Source of the DNA: Bifidobacterium breve
GTDB taxonomy: Bacteria; Actinomycetota; Thermoleophilia; Miltoncostaeales; Miltoncostaeaceae
Direction of reading: 5' to 3'
Length of the DNA stretch: 64,000 nt
Assembly (NCBI GenBank): GCA_945861935.1
Contig: CAMAVU010000002.1
Coordinates: 1-64,000, forward strand
Each line of letters begins with the position of its first letter. Within the stretch, counting starts at the first letter, position 1. Positions 1 through 13,189 of this stretch are shown in pieces. The notes beneath the pieces were generated by a model. That model made no database searches, had not been told where the DNA came from, and saw only the letters and a list, made by a program, of their open reading frames with translations. The position numbers and the translations under genes were made by a program.

Positions 1-220
1 CCTTCATCTCGATCAGGCATACCCGGGGCCACAGCAAGTCCAGGAACCGTCCCGACTGGGCCTGCTCGAATGCTGCGACCGCCCGGCGCTCCTGGCCGTA
101 GCACGCGAACAACTCGTTGCAGAACGTCTGCGCCTCGGCGCGCTCGGACCCCTCGTACACGCTCCACTTGGCCGCGAACGGCTGGAGACGTCGGCGGATA
201 TCCTCGCCCGTCAGGCTCAT
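1..220 (-). CDS. MmeI-like Type IIL restriction-modification protein, N-terminal fragment
   Basis: The gene runs off the left edge, so only the first 73 codons are visible. They look like the N-terminus of Type IIL (MmeI-like) enzymes, single chains joining a PD-(D/E)xK nuclease, an N6-adenine methyltransferase and a target-recognition domain. The helix SERAEAQTFCNELFACYG (about residues 26-43) and the segment FLDLLWPRVCLIEMK (59-73), with the D...ExK nuclease core, are the basis for the call. The ATG has no clear Shine-Dalgarno sequence and lies 16 bp after a small upstream gene, so it is probably translated from that gene's mRNA. The methyltransferase and specificity domains would lie outside the window. 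An orphan fragment cannot be excluded. Confidence 0.72.
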   Translation of the reverse strand, partial: MSLTGEDIRRRLQPFAAKWSVYEGSERAEAQTFCNELFACYGQERRAVAAFEQAQSGRFLDLLWPRVCLIEMK

Positions 221-236
221 GGGGGGCTTGCCCGCG

Positions 237-470
237 TCAGAACAAGGGCTCCCCGTGCGCGACCGGCTCCTTCGGAACAGCGAAGTACGTCTTCTGCATC
301 AGGAGACGGTGCAGGGCCGCCAAGTCCGCGGAGGCGGTGGTGAGCGCATCCACGAGGTGGGCGTCGGCACCATCGCGCGCCAGCGCGGTCGCGGCCCGGT
401 CCGCCCGCTTGCGGGCGTCGGAAATAAACAGCAGAGTCTTCTCGACCTCGGAGAAGTGGGTTTCGTTCAT
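237..470 (-). CDS. small helical protein upstream of the MmeI-like gene
   Basis: A 77-residue protein of unknown function, charged and helical throughout, beginning MNETHFSEVEKTLL, with no signal peptide or recognisable domain. The ATG was chosen over an upstream in-frame start because AGGAGG sits 4 nt before it. It precedes the restriction-modification gene by 16 bp and is probably the first gene of that operon. Small genes next to restriction enzymes are often controllers, but I see no helix-turn-helix signature here, so that role is only a guess. Confidence 0.6.
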   Translation of the reverse strand: MNETHFSEVEKTLLFISDARKRADRAATALARDGADAHLVDALTTASADLAALHRLLMQKTYFAVPKEPVAHGEPLF

Positions 471-590
471 GTCGCCTCCTCGCGAGCCCCATCCTAGGCT
501 CACGCCCGGACGGGCAGTGTGGCCCGCGACGGCCCGTGCGTTCCGGAAGTGTGCGGTAGCGGCAACGCAGGCGCTCCTGGGGCGGCCCCG

Positions 591-1259
591 TCAGTCGAGG
601 GGCCTGCCGCCACGCATGTCGGGGTGGATGCGGATCAGGCGGGGGTCGAGGTCGTCGAGTTCGCGCGCCCGGGCGACGCCGGGCAGGGCGCCGACCCGCT
701 CGTAGTGGGAGGCCAGGGCCGGGCCGCCGAGGCGGATGTCGTCGTAGTGCTGCCAGCCCACGAGCATGTAGGCATAGATGTCGGCGACCCCCGGCTGGTC
801 ACCGGCCAGCCACATGTGGTCGGCGAGCCATGCCTCGAGGTGGGCGCCGTTCCGCCGCATCTGCTCCCGGCCCCCGGCCCGGAGCGACTCCTGCGCCGAC
901 TCATCCGGGGTGAGGTGGGATGCGCCCATGACGGGCCACCACCCGACGTGGAGAGTGTTGGCACACCAGGTGACCCAGCGGTAGTGGTCCGCCCGGGCCG
1001 GGGTCCCCACTGGGGGCGCCAGTCCGGCGTCCGGGAACCGATCGCCGAGCCAGAGCAGGATGGCGCCGGTCTCGGCCAGGCACACGTCGCCATCGCGGAG
1101 GGTGGGCACCCGGAGGAGGGGGTTGGCGGCGGCGAAGCCTGCGGCCTCGTCCCGGCGACGGGGGTGGACGTCCACCACCGCGTAGTCGGCGCCCGCACAT
1201 TCGAGCGCGGCGCGGGCCGCGAACGACGACGACCCGGTGATCTGGAACAGGGTGATCAT
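591..1259 (-). CDS. glutathione S-transferase family protein
   Basis: A 222-residue cytosolic protein with a thioredoxin-like N-terminal half and a helical C-terminal half, in the usual GST order and length. The N-terminus MITLFQITGSSSF, the cis-Pro segment NPLLRVPTL (about 47-55) and the ETGAILLWLGDRF stretch (about 63-75) correspond to the glutathione-site strands of the family. The C-terminal helix holds GVADIYAYMLVGW. The ATG overlaps the stop of the upstream dehydrogenase by 4 bp, so the two are translationally coupled. Actinobacteria often lack glutathione, so the thiol or substrate is uncertain. Confidence 0.82.
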   Translation of the reverse strand: MITLFQITGSSSFAARAALECAGADYAVVDVHPRRRDEAAGFAAANPLLRVPTLRDGDVCLAETGAILLWLGDRFPDAGLAPPVGTPARADHYRWVTWCANTLHVGWWPVMGASHLTPDESAQESLRAGGREQMRRNGAHLEAWLADHMWLAGDQPGVADIYAYMLVGWQHYDDIRLGGPALASHYERVGALPGVARARELDDLDPRLIRIHPDMRGGRPLD

Positions 1260-2101
1260 CGCCCGCTCCCCGGAAGGTCCATGAGCAACCGTGCCACTGC
1301 CCCGTAGTCGAGGGTGCCGTCCACCTGATCGAACAGGCGGCTCACCGGGTCGCCGATCGTGAGCGGCCGCCCCGCCAGCGCCCGTGCGTGGCCAAGGTCC
1401 TTCCGCATGTCACGCGTGCGGAATCCCGGACGGTGGTCGCCGTCCAGCACGCGTGGGAACAGGTGCCGCAACTGCCAGGAGTCGCCCGATGACGCCATGA
1501 GGACACGTGCCAGCACCTCGGGCTCCACCCCGGCCCGCTGGCCGATGCCCAGGGCCTCGGCGGTGCCGGCCGAGATCACGGCCGCGAGGAGGTTGTTCAC
1601 CAACTTCGCCACGAGCCCCGCGCCGACCGGCCCGCAGTGGACACGCCGGGCCGGATCACCAATGAGATCCAGTACCGGTGCGGCGGAGGCCACACCCGCC
1701 TCGGTGCCGCCGCACATGACGGCCAGAGTGCCGGCCTCCGCGCCCAGGGGGCCACCGCTCACCGGGCAGTCGAGGTACTCCGATCCCCCTGCGGCGGCGA
1801 TCGCGGCAGCCTCGCGCGCAGCGACGGGCGCAATCGTGGAGGTGTCGATGATGAGCGGTGGCGGTGCCGGTGCCGCCATTGCCTTGCGCACCACATCGAG
1901 GACGTCCTCGGAGTCGGTGACCGACACGAGGGCGATCGCGGCGCCGTCCACGGCCCCGGCGACGGACGTCGCCGGGGTGGCGGGCAGGCCCTCGGCCTTC
2001 GATCGCGTGCGGGCGAAGACGGTGACGTCGTGGCCACCCGCCGCAAGATTGCGGATCATTCCGGCGCCCATGAGCCCGGCTCCCACCACTGCCACGTGCA
2101 T
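1256..2101 (-). CDS. NAD(P)-dependent 3-hydroxyisobutyrate dehydrogenase family reductase
   Basis: A 281-residue beta-hydroxyacid dehydrogenase. It starts directly with the Rossmann fold (MHVAVVGAGLMGAGMI, GxGxxG). It then shows the substrate-binding motif DCPVSGGPLGAEAGTL and the helix GAGLVAKLVNNLL with the family's catalytic lysine. Members reduce or oxidise small beta-hydroxyacids such as 3-hydroxyisobutyrate or tartronate semialdehyde; the exact substrate cannot be read from sequence. The start was placed at the ATG before the nucleotide fold; longer reading adds an Arg/Pro-rich non-homologous stretch. The gene lies 5 bp after the CPGC-repeat gene, and a TAGGGT box 7 nt before the ATG could drive a leaderless transcript. 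Confidence 0.85.
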   Translation of the reverse strand: MHVAVVGAGLMGAGMIRNLAAGGHDVTVFARTRSKAEGLPATPATSVAGAVDGAAIALVSVTDSEDVLDVVRKAMAAPAPPPLIIDTSTIAPVAAREAAAIAAAGGSEYLDCPVSGGPLGAEAGTLAVMCGGTEAGVASAAPVLDLIGDPARRVHCGPVGAGLVAKLVNNLLAAVISAGTAEALGIGQRAGVEPEVLARVLMASSGDSWQLRHLFPRVLDGDHRPGFRTRDMRKDLGHARALAGRPLTIGDPVSRLFDQVDGTLDYGAVARLLMDLPGSGR

Positions 2102-3494: not shown

Positions 3495-3554
3495 GGTGAC
3501 GGGGCCAGAGCCGGCCGTATTCCCGGGCGGGGGGATCGGCGGTCCGGGAGACGA

Positions 3555-3737
3555 CTAGCCCTCGCGGGGCTCCTCGGCATCGGCCTCCATGGACCGGGCC
3601 GCGTCGGCGGGCACCTCGGCCCGGGCGCGCTCCTCAGCCTTCTCGAGCGCCTCGATCGCGTCGAGGCGCGACAGGACGTCGTCCCCGCCCTCCATGGTCC
3701 GGAAACTGCTCCGGCGCTCCCGCTTCGCCTTCGCCAT
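3555..3737 (-). CDS. small charged protein downstream of the NUDIX gene
   Basis: A 60-residue, highly charged protein: basic N-terminus (MAKAKRERRSSF), then a helical heptad-like Glu/Ala/Arg segment and an acidic tail. Its ATG overlaps the NUDIX stop codon as TGATG and has GGGGAGG 5 nt upstream, good evidence that it is translated. No known family. Cytosolic; possibly a short coiled coil. Confidence 0.6.
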   Translation of the reverse strand: MAKAKRERRSSFRTMEGGDDVLSRLDAIEALEKAEERARAEVPADAARSMEADAEEPREG

Positions 3738-4207
3738 CAGAACCTCCCCGTTTGCGAGGGAGATCGTACTCGCCTGCCGCGGCGTTTCCGGAGTGCACGG
3801 TGCCCCGGACGGCCGACGCGAGCGGTGGCCAGCGCCGTGACCAGACGCTCGTCGGCGGGCGGGAAGGCGTAGGACGGCAGGTCCTCGCAGCGCACCCACC
3901 GGAACTGCGGGCTGACCAGGGCACGCGGGCGTTGCCCCGGGGGGTACGAGCATTCGTAGAAGCGCAGACGGAGGCGACCGGCGGCCTCCTGCCAGATCAT
4001 CCGGGGTGCGACGACCTCGATCCCAAGTTCCTCGCGCAACTCACGCCGGAGTGCCTCGATGTCCCCCTCCCCCGGGTCGCGCTTGCCACCGGGGAACTCC
4101 CATCGCCCGGCGTGGCCCGAGCCATCGGGGCGCTGAGTGATGAGAACCCACGGGCCCTGCCGGATGACCGCCGCCACCACGACGATGATCTGGCCGCGCC
4201 GTCTCAT
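3737..4207 (-). CDS. NUDIX hydrolase, MutT-like
   Basis: A 156-residue hydrolase with a perfect Nudix box (GX5EX7REUXEEXGU) at residues 41-63: GKRDPGE, then GDIEALR, then RELREELGI. The preceding WEFPGGK is typical of MutT/8-oxo-dGTPase-like members, which remove oxidised nucleotides from the precursor pool. The C-terminal about 25 residues are a basic Arg/Lys tail. It overlaps the mutY stop by 4 bp (ATGA), so nucleotide-pool cleaning and 8-oxoG:A mismatch repair are encoded together. Other pyrophosphate-linked substrates remain possible. Confidence 0.83.
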   Translation of the reverse strand: MRRRGQIIVVVAAVIRQGPWVLITQRPDGSGHAGRWEFPGGKRDPGEGDIEALRRELREELGIEVVAPRMIWQEAAGRLRLRFYECSYPPGQRPRALVSPQFRWVRCEDLPSYAFPPADERLVTALATARVGRPGHRALRKRRGRRVRSPSQTGRF

Positions 4208-9331: not shown

Positions 9332-9685
9332 CTACCCCTGCATCTCCACCGCCACGAGGCGGTTGTCGTCGGGGTCGAGGAACTCCATCGAGAGGGCGCC
9401 GCCCATGTCCTCGATGGGGTCCTTCTTCACGCCGGCCGCCTCAAGGGCGGCCTCGAGTGCCCGCAGGTCGCTGGTGAGGAAGGTCACGACGGCGCCACCC
9501 TGATGCGGCGTGGTGGCCAACTCGCCGAACAGGCCGATTTCCGTGCCGCCGACCGTGAACTGCGCCCAGTCGTTCCCGGCGCGGCGGCTGAGATCGAGCC
9601 CGAGGACGCCCTCGTAGAACGCCACGGAGCGGTTCATGTTGCACACCCCGTAGAAGACGACATCCACGCCCTCGATGAGTCCCAC
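9332..9685 (-). CDS. VOC family (glyoxalase/bleomycin-resistance) protein
   Basis: A 117-residue single-domain vicinal-oxygen-chelate protein with the paired beta-alpha-beta-beta-beta modules. The N-terminal module has VVFYGVCNMNRSVAFYEGVL. The second has AVVTFLTSDLRALEAALEAAG and ends MEFLDPDDNRLVAVE, where the Glu is a normal metal ligand of the family. Substrate is unknown; members include glyoxalases, dioxygenases and antibiotic-binding proteins. GTG start with a GGGGGAG stretch upstream. It is divergent from the permease gene. Confidence 0.8.
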   Translation of the reverse strand: MGLIEGVDVVFYGVCNMNRSVAFYEGVLGLDLSRRAGNDWAQFTVGGTEIGLFGELATTPHQGGAVVTFLTSDLRALEAALEAAGVKKDPIEDMGGALSMEFLDPDDNRLVAVEMQG

Positions 9686-9787
9686 GCCCTGCTCCCCCGT
9701 CGGTCATATCCCCCGCGCAGGGGCTTGGCGTCGCGATGCTACCGGCGCGGGAGTACGATGCCGCGCCGAATGGGGACGGGGTAGAAA

Positions 9788-11749
9788 GTGGCCATCCGGC
9801 GCCGCAGGCGCGAGCGGATGGAGAGGGTCGTCGGGGCGCCCGGGCTGTGGGCCACCGCGTACGGAAACGTCGGCTCATCCATCTATTACGCCCTTGGTCT
9901 GGTGGCGGCGTATTCCCTCGGGCTCACGCCGCTGGTCTTCCTGTTCGCGGGCCTCATCTTCGCGGCGACGGCCGTCTCGTACACCGAGGGCACCGCGATG
10001 TTCCCCGAGGCCGGCGGGTCGTCCTCATTCGCGCGCCATGCGTTCAACGAAGGTGCGGCGTTCGGGGCGGCCTGGGGCCAGATGCTCAACTACATCATCA
10101 CGATCGCCATCTCGGCGTTCTTCGTCCCGCACTACCTGGGCGTGTTCTGGGAGCCGCTCAAGTCGAACCCGTGGGACATCATCGCCGGCATCGGCGTGGT
10201 GGCCCTGCTCGCCCTCCTCAACATCGTGGGCATCCGGGAGGCCGCCAAACTGAACCTGGGGCTGGCCATCCTGGATCTGGGCACGCAGATCCTGCTGGTG
10301 ATCGTGGGGCTGGTGGTCCTGTTCTCGCCCACCACCGTCTGGGACAACATCGTGTGGGGGGTCGCCCCCACGTGGACGAACGTGGTCATCGGCGTGACCC
10401 TCGCCATGATCGCCTACACGGGCATCGAGACCATCTCGAACATGGCCGAGGAGGCCCAGGTGCCGGAGCGCACCATCCCTGCCTCCATCCGCGCAACGGT
10501 CATCACCGTGCTGGTCATGTACGCGCTCATCCCGATGGTGGCGCTGTCCGCGCTGCCGGTCACGCGTCAGGCTGACGGCACCTACGCGACCGAACTCGGC
10601 ACCACCTACGCAGGCGACCCGATCCTGGGAATCGTGGAGCAATTCGGGTTCTCGGGCGCCATCCGGGACATCGTCATCGGCTTCGTCGGCATCCTGGCTG
10701 CCACGATCCTGATGATCGCCACGAACGCGGGAATCATCGGCGTGTCGCGCCTGACATACGCGATGGGCTCCCACCGGCAGTTGCCCGCGGCGGTCCGCCG
10801 CCTCCACCCGCGCTTCAACACGCCGGCCGTGGCCATCATCATCTTCTGCACGGTCGCCGCGCTGGTGATGATCCCCGGCCAGGCCGTCTTCCTGTCCAAC
10901 CTCTACGCGTTCGGCGCGATGCTGTCGTTCAGCATCGCCCACCTCGCGATCATCTGGATGCGCTGGAAGCGTCCCGAGATGAGGCGGCCGTACCGCGGCA
11001 GGCCCAGCCTCTCGGTCCGGGGACGCAGTATCCCCCTGTTCGCGATCTTCGGGCTGCTCGGAACCGGAGGCGCTCTGGTGGCCGTGCTCGTCCTCCGCCC
11101 CGACGCACGCTGGGTGGGCCTCGCCTGGATGGTCGGGGGCATGCTGATGTACATCGTCTACCGGCGCCACATCGGCGTGCCGTGGACGCAGACGGCCACG
11201 CTGGAGCGCCGGGAGCTCACGCTCGAGGTGGATGTCGCGTACACGAAGATCCTCGTGCCCGTGGTGGCGACCGAGTCGTCGGAGGAGATGATGGCGACCG
11301 CCGGCAAACTGGCCGCCGACCGGGGCGTGAGTATCCACGCGATCACCGTGGTCGAGGTGCCCGTGGAGTTGCCCCTCGATGCCGAGATGCCACGCGAGCA
11401 ACGGGGGGCCGAGCAACTGCTCGCCCACGCCCGCCAGATCGCCGAGGAATACGGGGCCGCGGTTGAGACCACGGTGGTCCACGGCCGGCAGGCCGGGCGC
11501 GCAATCGTGGAGGAGGCGCGCCGGATGAAGGCCGAGGTCATCATGATGGGCATCGCACGGAAGCGGCGACTGGGCGAGCACATATTCGGGCGCACCGTGG
11601 ACTACGTGCTGCGCCACGCCCCGTGCCGCGTCGTCATCGCCAGCGATGCGGCGGCGCCCGGCACCACGTCGTCGGACCCCATCGGCGCGGCACATCCGGA
11701 GGCGGTCGGGGGCACCCCGGCGGCCCCGCAGAACGCCGACAAGGCCTGA
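9788..11749 (+). CDS. APC-family amino acid permease with C-terminal universal-stress domain
   Basis: A 653-residue protein. Residues about 15-465 form a 12-helix APC transporter; GLWATAYGNVGSSIYYALG carries the glycine-rich first helix of the substrate and cation site. After helix 12 the cytoplasmic tail holds a UspA fold: ILVPVVATESSEEMMATAG at its start and VIMMGIARKRRLGEHIFG with a GxG-type nucleotide loop near the end. Fusions of this kind suggest that transport is tied to nucleotide or stress sensing. GTG start after a GGGG stretch; a TACGAT box about 30 nt upstream could be its promoter. Substrate cannot be predicted. Confidence 0.85.
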   Translation: MAIRRRRRERMERVVGAPGLWATAYGNVGSSIYYALGLVAAYSLGLTPLVFLFAGLIFAATAVSYTEGTAMFPEAGGSSSFARHAFNEGAAFGAAWGQMLNYIITIAISAFFVPHYLGVFWEPLKSNPWDIIAGIGVVALLALLNIVGIREAAKLNLGLAILDLGTQILLVIVGLVVLFSPTTVWDNIVWGVAPTWTNVVIGVTLAMIAYTGIETISNMAEEAQVPERTIPASIRATVITVLVMYALIPMVALSALPVTRQADGTYATELGTTYAGDPILGIVEQFGFSGAIRDIVIGFVGILAATILMIATNAGIIGVSRLTYAMGSHRQLPAAVRRLHPRFNTPAVAIIIFCTVAALVMIPGQAVFLSNLYAFGAMLSFSIAHLAIIWMRWKRPEMRRPYRGRPSLSVRGRSIPLFAIFGLLGTGGALVAVLVLRPDARWVGLAWMVGGMLMYIVYRRHIGVPWTQTATLERRELTLEVDVAYTKILVPVVATESSEEMMATAGKLAADRGVSIHAITVVEVPVELPLDAEMPREQRGAEQLLAHARQIAEEYGAAVETTVVHGRQAGRAIVEEARRMKAEVIMMGIARKRRLGEHIFGRTVDYVLRHAPCRVVIASDAAAPGTTSSDPIGAAHPEAVGGTPAAPQNADKA

Positions 11750-11802
11750 TCAGGTGACAATCACACAACAAGTTTACGATTACCCGCACATGTGATCGTG
11801 AC

Positions 11803-11832
11803 ACTTCGTGGCACCCGCCACGAAGTCGCTTT
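11803..11832 (+). terminator. Rho-independent terminator of the permease gene
   Basis: A perfect 10-bp stem (11803-11812 with 11817-11826) around an ACCC loop, followed by CGCTTT and further pyrimidines. It lies about 50 bp after the permease stop and before the MFS promoter. Confidence 0.7.
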
Positions 11833-11887
11833 CTCCCTTTCCCATGGGATGTACGTAGCCGGTTACCCCTCCCAGCGGCATGGTCCG

Positions 11888-11903
11888 GCACAAGCGCTTG
11901 TGC
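11888..11903. promoter_or_regulatory. 16-bp perfect palindrome, candidate operator
   Basis: GCACAAGCGCTTGTGC is fully symmetric and ends 13 bp before the -35 box of the MFS exporter gene. Size and position fit a dimeric regulator site. No regulator gene adjoins it. Confidence 0.5.
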
Positions 11904-11916
11904 GGTTCGTGTCAAA

Positions 11917-11945
11917 TTGACGGGAACCCGGGATGCCGTTACGGT
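11917..11945 (+). promoter_or_regulatory. promoter of the MFS exporter gene
   Basis: TTGACG (11917-11922), a 17-bp spacer, and TACGGT (11940-11945), then 8 nt to the ATG. Spacing and both boxes fit the housekeeping sigma factor, and the transcript would be leaderless. This also decides the start codon of the gene. Confidence 0.7.
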
Positions 11946-11953
11946 CGTCCTGC

Positions 11954-13189
11954 ATGAAGACCGGCCCCAGGAACCCGCTTCTCCGATCCCGTGATGGGGT
12001 CGCCCTGCTCGTGACGCAGGCGGCCCACGCGTTGGCGCAGGGCATGCTCACCGTCATCATCCCCTGGCTCATCCTCGAGCAGGGCGGGTCGGCGTCTCAG
12101 GCTGCGATCGGGTTCGCGATCACCTTCGTGCCCTTCCTGTTCCTGGCCGGGCCCGCGGGCCTCGCCGGCGACCGCCTCGCACGGCGCCCGCTGCTCGGCA
12201 GCGCGCTCGCCCTCGGCACGGTGATGGCCGCCGCCATCGCGGTGCTCGTCGCGGCCGGCACCCCGGGCGTTCCGCTCCTCTACCTCGCGGCCTTCCTCAT
12301 CGGCTCCGTCCGGGTGTTCGTGGACGCCGCCATGTTCGGTGCCCTCGCCGCCGTGGCCGCGCGCGACGAGATGATGCCGGCGCAGGCGGCTCTCGCGCAG
12401 GCATTCAACCTCGGGTACTTCGGCGGCCCGGCCCTCGCCGGTCTGGCATTGGTGGTGGGTGCCGGTACCGCGATGTGGATCGTCGCGGGGGCGCTGCTGG
12501 TCGCCGGTGCCGCCGCCGGATCGGGCTCCAGCCGTCTGGACGAGCGCGTGGCAACAGGGCCCAGGCCCTCGCTCCGACTGGGGCTGGCCTTCCTCTTCCT
12601 GTCACGTGGCCTGCGCGTGCTGGCACTCACCGGGCTGGCCTGGAGCATCGCCTCGGGGGCCGCCATCAGTCTGGCGGTGCCGCACCTGCGGAATGGTCTG
12701 GGTGTGTCCGGGGGAGCGCTCGCGGCGGTGCTCGGTGCCGGCGTGGCCTGCATGATGCTCGCCACCCCCATCATCACGCGCCTCGACCAGCGCCACGCCG
12801 ACGAGACGATCATCGTGCTCGCGTGCGCCGCGTACGTCGTGCCCGCCCTCGCCATGGCACTGGTTCCGGGCGTGATGGGCACCGCCCTCGCCTACGCCCC
12901 GCTGATGCTTGCCAACGCCATCTGCGCAGCCGCGCTCATGGGCGCGCGTGCCCGGCGGGTGCCCCGCTCGATGCAGGCACTGGCCGGGGTTGCGGGCCGC
13001 ACCCTGGTGATGGCCGGCCTCGCCGTCGGCGCCGCCCTCGGCGGCTTCGCCGCCGACTGGGTGGGGTCGCGGGGGGCCTATGCCCTGGTGGCGGGCGCGC
13101 TGGCGCTGACGGCCCTCGGGGCCCGCCCGGCACTGATGCGTGCTCGCGAGCGCCGCCTCCGCGGCCGCGCCGCACCCGCCCGCACGTAA
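11954..13189 (+). CDS. MFS transporter, drug-efflux-like
   Basis: A 411-residue inner-membrane protein with 12 predicted helices, in the range of macrolide/multidrug exporters. FVPFLFLAGPAGLAGDRLARR in the loop between helices 2 and 3 matches the MFS motif A region (GxLaDrxGrr). The first in-frame ATG was not used because the promoter places the transcription start at the second. Followed 47 bp later by an SRPBCC gene that shares the terminator. The upstream palindrome suggests repression relieved by a ligand. The substrate is unknown. Confidence 0.8.
   Translation: MKTGPRNPLLRSRDGVALLVTQAAHALAQGMLTVIIPWLILEQGGSASQAAIGFAITFVPFLFLAGPAGLAGDRLARRPLLGSALALGTVMAAAIAVLVAAGTPGVPLLYLAAFLIGSVRVFVDAAMFGALAAVAARDEMMPAQAALAQAFNLGYFGGPALAGLALVVGAGTAMWIVAGALLVAGAAAGSGSSRLDERVATGPRPSLRLGLAFLFLSRGLRVLALTGLAWSIASGAAISLAVPHLRNGLGVSGGALAAVLGAGVACMMLATPIITRLDQRHADETIIVLACAAYVVPALAMALVPGVMGTALAYAPLMLANAICAAALMGARARRVPRSMQALAGVAGRTLVMAGLAVGAALGGFAADWVGSRGAYALVAGALALTALGARPALMRARERRLRGRAAPART

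Follow-up and report, generated by a model that had tools for sequence, protein, structure and literature searches.

A small gene conserved beside one clade of MmeI-like Type IIL restriction-modification enzymes, with a candidate clamp-binding tail

The gene pair at the contig end

The window analysed here, i.e. the whole stretch of 64,000 nucleotides, comprises bases 1-64000 of contig C2 of a 1.60-Mb genome in 78 contigs. Its edge at base 1 is the contig end and lies inside a gene: An open frame on the reverse strand (2-220) provides the first 73 codons of an MmeI-like Type IIL restriction-modification gene and leaves the window at base 1. This fragment matches Pfam MmeI_N (1.1e-9) and the PADLOC profile REase_MTase_IIG (4.2e-8), and its terminal codons (2-40, reverse strand) specify the nuclease signature D61...E71-M72-K73, with a spacing identical to the D70...E80-M81-K82 given for MmeI (PMC4833311). 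The remaining part of the enzyme was recovered from the same genome by a search with a relative's enzyme, which placed residues 74-901 at C16:29164-31674 (reverse strand), again ending at a contig end. The final 7 bases of C16 equal bases 1-7 of the window, and the joined frame of 915 aa is free of stops; the left-hand gene is thus intact, with its rest on C16, and the truncation considered in a preliminary description of this DNA did not materialize. The assembly break inside the enzyme gene falls exactly at the E-x-K codons, where the two contigs share 7 bases only.

The joined frame scores above the Pfam cut-off for MmeI_N (9.6e-19), MmeI_hel, MmeI_Mtase and MmeI_TRD, uniting a target recognition domain with a helical spacer and a gamma-class adenine methylase in a single chain, and contains the methylase motifs DPACG and NPPF. 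For the MmeI C-terminal domain no match was reported at E 0.01 in the window enzyme, and that of a further locus (L013) lies just below the cut-off. By the membership tests made, these sequence features support placing the window enzyme in Type IIL, a class characterized by methylation of one strand and cleavage about 20 nt away, and the preliminary description was right in recognizing an MmeI-like enzyme of this type from its D...ExK start.

Immediately upstream on the same strand lies a small gene (237-470, reverse strand, stop included), an ATG-to-stop frame of 77 aa whose stop is separated from the enzyme ATG by 16 bp (bases 221-236). An AGGAGG ribosome-binding site (475-480, reverse strand) stands 4 nt before its ATG; the 16-bp gap preceding the enzyme ATG shows nothing of this kind. 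The frame, the AGGAGG site and the AlphaFold2 model discussed below agree with the earlier portrayal of a 77-residue helical protein with an excellent ribosome site 16 bp upstream of the enzyme. In searches of Pfam and other family libraries, the small protein has no match above the curated cut-offs, its PADLOC match being weak (E 0.034); when 33 aligned small proteins were compared with Pfam, NCBIfam, PADLOC and PHROGs, the result was a scatter of weak matches, each in few members.

By gene calls named from reading their translations, the 31.7 kb of C16 to the left of the enzyme hold mostly housekeeping genes (e.g. those read as guaA, guaB, pfkB-like and D-Ala-D-Ala carboxypeptidase-like), and the right flank is likewise mostly housekeeping. 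Neither set of gene calls shows a sign of a defence island around the enzyme, and the wider defence locus once envisaged to the left has no counterpart in these 31.7 kb. Searches of window positions 1-1300 for Rfam families, promoters and terminators returned no match.

Restriction of the small gene to one enzyme clade

We queried 84,980 species genomes with four aligned enzymes and kept the best 80 of 185 relatives; these loci were searched for the small protein with an iterated profile that started from seven of its members. Among these best 80 of 185, the small protein adjoins the enzyme start in 34 loci, and in all 34 the best segment of the enzyme is at least 47% identical to the query. 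Of the 46 loci without it, 43 have enzymes at 41% identity or less, and the other three belong to the same clade by identity: one has a clade enzyme and no match to the small gene (L034), one has a clade enzyme with a sub-threshold candidate only (L051) and one is an enzyme fragment lacking the enzyme start (L057). A tree of the 72 enzymes of at least 800 aa, computed by a quick method with shorter rows left out, recovers one clade of 33 rows (SH-aLRT 99) in which 31 have the small gene, against 0/39 outside it. The members of this clade are mostly Actinomycetota, with one from an Acidobacteria bin (L032). The preliminary description had named co-occurrence of the small protein with MmeI-like genes as a check, and the outcome is positive.

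The same restriction is apparent in two samples of 396 genomes of the phylum. At E 1e-60 these hold 18 MmeI-like places, with the small gene present in 4/4 clade places and in 0/14 others, where only the scanned flanks count and several flanks are short because the match starts inside the enzyme. Counting both copies of one genome (G090), four small genes lie beside an MmeI-like enzyme or are split from one. The remaining matches in the 396 genomes are a copy adjoining a Type ISP enzyme and a frame-broken relic, apart from a weak and probably spurious match in G287; thus, the small protein was not found to be widespread without restriction genes in this sample, the pattern that would have spoken against a pairing. 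In the first case (G043, locus L014), the small gene (9458-9694) has no MmeI-like enzyme and converges, across 1 bp, on a Type ISP gene (9696-12947), which encodes an enzyme of 1083 aa matching Pfam Type_ISP_C (2e-69). A general link between the small gene and Type ISP enzymes was considered and did not hold: G043 is the only one of 14 genomes with a relative of that enzyme in which the scanned flanks contain the small gene. The relic (G065, L015:9994-10264) has no restriction gene recognized nearby.

Plasmid sequences yielded eight small-protein matches, all with an MmeI-like match just downstream on the same strand (8/8 by coordinates, with three records opened); seven come from Rhodococcus and are not independent, five of them belonging to one strain group. 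The eighth is from Frondihabitans and has a shortened enzyme. In the three records opened, the small gene is annotated as 'hypothetical protein'. The window's own small protein, used as the query, found no match among the plasmids. A Rhodococcus plasmid classed as conjugative has its pair next to a lariatin-like lasso peptide cluster (L116:2568-10977). No match was found in a phage collection with one Arthrobacter small protein as the query or in viral contigs with the window small protein; with the enzyme as the query, viral contigs gave two loci, one of them (L108) with the small gene. This 5.3-kb contig of the viral collection carries a pair closely resembling the one in Microbacterium schleiferi (L058), and is perhaps a misfiled bacterial contig.

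The small gene shows the hallmarks of purifying selection, with dN/dS of 0.058-0.385 in 12 informative pairs and a thirteenth with dN of 0 and few changes. Small-protein and enzyme distances are correlated over 32 loci (r 0.87, with 0/2000 permutations as high), in a comparison not controlled for host relatedness. No third gene is conserved with the pair: among 42 flanks compared, no family is common to more than seven, and the families present in five come from closely related Microbacteriaceae. In five loci (L054, L055, L056, L065 and L068) the enzyme frame is broken despite a near-full-length match and the small gene is intact.

That the small gene might be an unrelated one, a neighbour by chance or through a shared mobile element, could be read from the G043 copy beside a Type ISP gene and the solitary G065 relic; nevertheless, with adjacency throughout a clade, in diverse genomes and on plasmids, we find this scarcely credible. 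Dozens of genomes retain the small gene next to the enzyme, it is under purifying selection, and its protein distances follow those of the enzyme; the adjacency exceeds chance. On sequence evidence, it is well supported that small gene and enzyme form a partnership, in which the small gene is inherited with the enzyme clade, and that the small proteins make up a genuine family, for which no library name was found. The edge fragment, ordinary at first sight, proves to belong to a two-gene variant of Type IIL systems that is widespread and whose partner appears undescribed as far as literature searches show. The earlier premise of a single-chain enzyme in need of no partner seems true of most of the Type IIL family, and perhaps not of this clade.

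One kind of partnership, in line with the inhibitor among the earlier suggestions, would be a brake, in which the small protein, produced ahead of the enzyme, keeps the nuclease in check until methylation of the host DNA, in the manner of an antitoxin. The gene order agrees with it, with the small gene upstream, behind a strong ribosome site, and the enzyme starting 16 bp past its stop; so does one locus (L030) with two tandem small genes (3495-3713 and 3761-3982) before a single enzyme, both ending in QLTL and otherwise diverged. However, other MmeI-like enzymes manage without the small gene, and a brake leaves the conserved tail motif described below unexplained; hence, we consider it unlikely. 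An apparent small-protein fusion in L030, indicated by a profile match in a long frame, was rejected as a stop-free read across another gene, the locus in truth having the two tandem genes.

Predicted fold and the C-terminal motif

AlphaFold2, run with 33 sequences, predicts helices at residues 3-32 and 37-62 (mean pLDDT 89), followed by residues 63-77 at low confidence. Thus, the small protein is predicted to be a two-helix hairpin (residues 3-62; 285-464, reverse strand) with a flexible tail and no helix-turn-helix. Comparisons with solved structures gave at best a designed coiled coil by sequence (E 0.0045) and generic hairpins by fold (E 2.0). The predicted fold bears on a transcriptional controller of the C-protein type, which had been among the earlier suggestions: its position upstream of the enzyme gene would suit such a role, but the modelled hairpin without a helix-turn-helix disfavours it, as does the lack of a regulator family match above cut-off, making a controller very improbable.

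We also modelled an artificial read-through chain of 979 residues from one locus (L027, 56 alignment rows), in which a 4-residue linker joins the small protein to its enzyme. Hairpin and enzyme are well predicted in this fused model and tail residues 64-79 have pLDDT <50; the tail is therefore not predicted to dock on the enzyme, as judged by pLDDT in a setting where the 4-residue linker limits the test. Matches of the fused model to the PDB cover mainly residues 237-948 and barely include the hairpin. The clade enzymes have a distinctive end of their own: a Y-x-P-F motif lies within the last 60 residues in 29/33 clade rows versus 0/39 others (two of the four clade enzymes without it being cut by contig ends), and this end is confidently placed in the fused model. 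It might serve as a docking site, although this is a guess.

These features enter into another reading, in which the small protein is a structural subunit: the hairpin would stabilize or dimerize the enzyme and the tail would dock on it, with the clamp uninvolved. It is in keeping with the strict pairing with one enzyme clade, with the clade-specific Y-x-P-F end as a possible docking site and with the account of MmeI as cleaving as a dimer (PMC4833311). Set against these are the disorder of the tail beside the enzyme in the fused model, a test limited by the short linker and by its reliance on pLDDT, and the variation of the tail in length while its end motif is kept. Overall, we judge a purely structural role to be rather unlikely.

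The end of the disordered tail in the window protein is GEPLF (residues 73-77; 240-254, reverse strand), a candidate clamp-binding motif. Tail length varies among the small proteins and a short hydrophobic end motif is usually kept, with LRLI, LRLL, QLPLF, DQTLF, QLTL, QTTL, EPLF, TRMF and LQMF as recurrent forms. Bacterial clamp clients are described as bearing ends akin to QL(S/D)LF, among which considerable variation is allowed (PMC9690074); a tolerant consensus is likewise reported in PMC11109965, where the NucS end has the form [EK]-[LY]-[TR]-L-F. For comparison with these we used 43 tails, dropping two duplicates (L013 and L108) and the frame-broken L015 and keeping one partial (L040) and one sub-threshold (L051) member. 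None of the 43 fits the strict clamp consensus (QL[SD]LF or [EK][LY][TR]LF). A loose pattern, picked after seeing the tails and applied to related rows, fits 32/43 tails versus 6/248 unrelated C-termini from the same loci; further patterns, also chosen post hoc, fit 32/43 versus 0/248 (R2), 34/43 versus 5/248 (R3) and 14/43 versus 14/248 (R5).

NucS itself was found in 12 of the 16 genomes searched, with no match in the window's own genome and three others, and the following comparison is accordingly made without the window genome. NucS ends in xxRLF in 9/9 Actinomycetes with the protein, and in L[TV]LF plus 1-2 residues in 3/3 Thermoleophilia. The small proteins of the same nine Actinomycetes end in LRLI (three), VRLI, LRLL, LRLM, TRLI, TRMF and LQMF, a close likeness (e.g. 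DDLRLF in NucS and DDLRLM in the small protein of L052), while those of the three Thermoleophilia end in IRLAV, QKLVA and QLALGAAS, a looser one. From these sequence likenesses, the small protein may work like a clamp client and is at most a candidate member of that class. In the Acidobacteria bin (L032), small protein and enzyme alike have clamp-like ends (DQTLF and GESVLF, respectively). The idea that the motif moves onto the enzyme's own end where the small gene is absent was not upheld: this is not seen in L034, and the L032 enzyme ends in GESVLF even though its small gene is present.

A possible clamp-linked module and its relation to known systems

Because MmeI-family enzymes methylate one strand only, each replication leaves one daughter duplex wholly unmethylated; the means by which this duplex is distinguished from foreign DNA is described as unclear (PMC4081073), and the passage of the replication fork at asymmetric sites as 'mostly obscure' (PMC12707154). 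An MmeI-family methylase, DnmA, is reported to be enriched at the replisome (PMC9973331). A partner of this sort, conserved and with a tail resembling clamp-binding ends, could explain how such an enzyme spares the freshly replicated DNA of its host. We tentatively favour, at somewhat short of an even chance, a two-gene Type IIL module in which the hairpin would hold the enzyme and the tail the clamp, so that one-strand methylation would be directed to DNA that has just been replicated. Here, the hairpin of the small protein would bind its enzyme and the flexible tail would bind DnaN, the sliding clamp, by its hydrophobic end motif. Tethered to clamps left behind the fork, the enzyme would meet new host DNA first, and might then re-methylate it or refrain from cutting it, and incoming DNA without host clamps would be cut.

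The fuller form of this proposal, that a dedicated adaptor tethers the enzyme to the replication clamp, such that self is known by its clamps and the unmethylated daughter duplex is methylated and not cut, is one we put forward with a good measure of doubt. Most MmeI-like enzymes are without the small gene, and therefore the replication problem must be solved there without the small protein, a point against the clamp model. Also counting against it are the misfit of all 43 tails to the strict consensus, the lack of a NucS match in the window genome, and the two clade loci with no small gene (L034) or a sub-threshold candidate only (L051). Even without the clamp step, a dedicated partner would be new, within the literature searches made, for an enzyme family regarded as self-sufficient.

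Among known systems, MmeI (PDB 5hr4) has the Pfam domain order, the D...ExK signature and the methylase motifs in common with the window-type enzyme, and superimposes on a clade member with a VIA-align Z of 39.3 (rmsd 4.3, 698 aligned). MmeI is described as acting alone, whereas the clade enzymes differ by their dedicated small gene and Y-x-P-F end. NucS/EndoMS with DnaN offers a further parallel as an actinobacterial nuclease with a C-terminal clamp-binding end, similar to the end motif on the small proteins of the same lineages; however, in NucS, which acts in mismatch repair, the motif is part of the nuclease, whereas here the candidate motif is on a separate, putative adaptor. DnmA (YeeA) of Bacillus subtilis is comparable as an MmeI-like methylase enriched at the replisome, but has no nuclease motif, and its neighbours are yeeB and yeeC rather than a small hairpin gene. 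Finally, Dnmt1 with PCNA, where the clamp directs methylation to new DNA (PMC9690074), resembles the proposed model in principle, differing in being a eukaryotic cytosine methylase with the motif within the enzyme itself.
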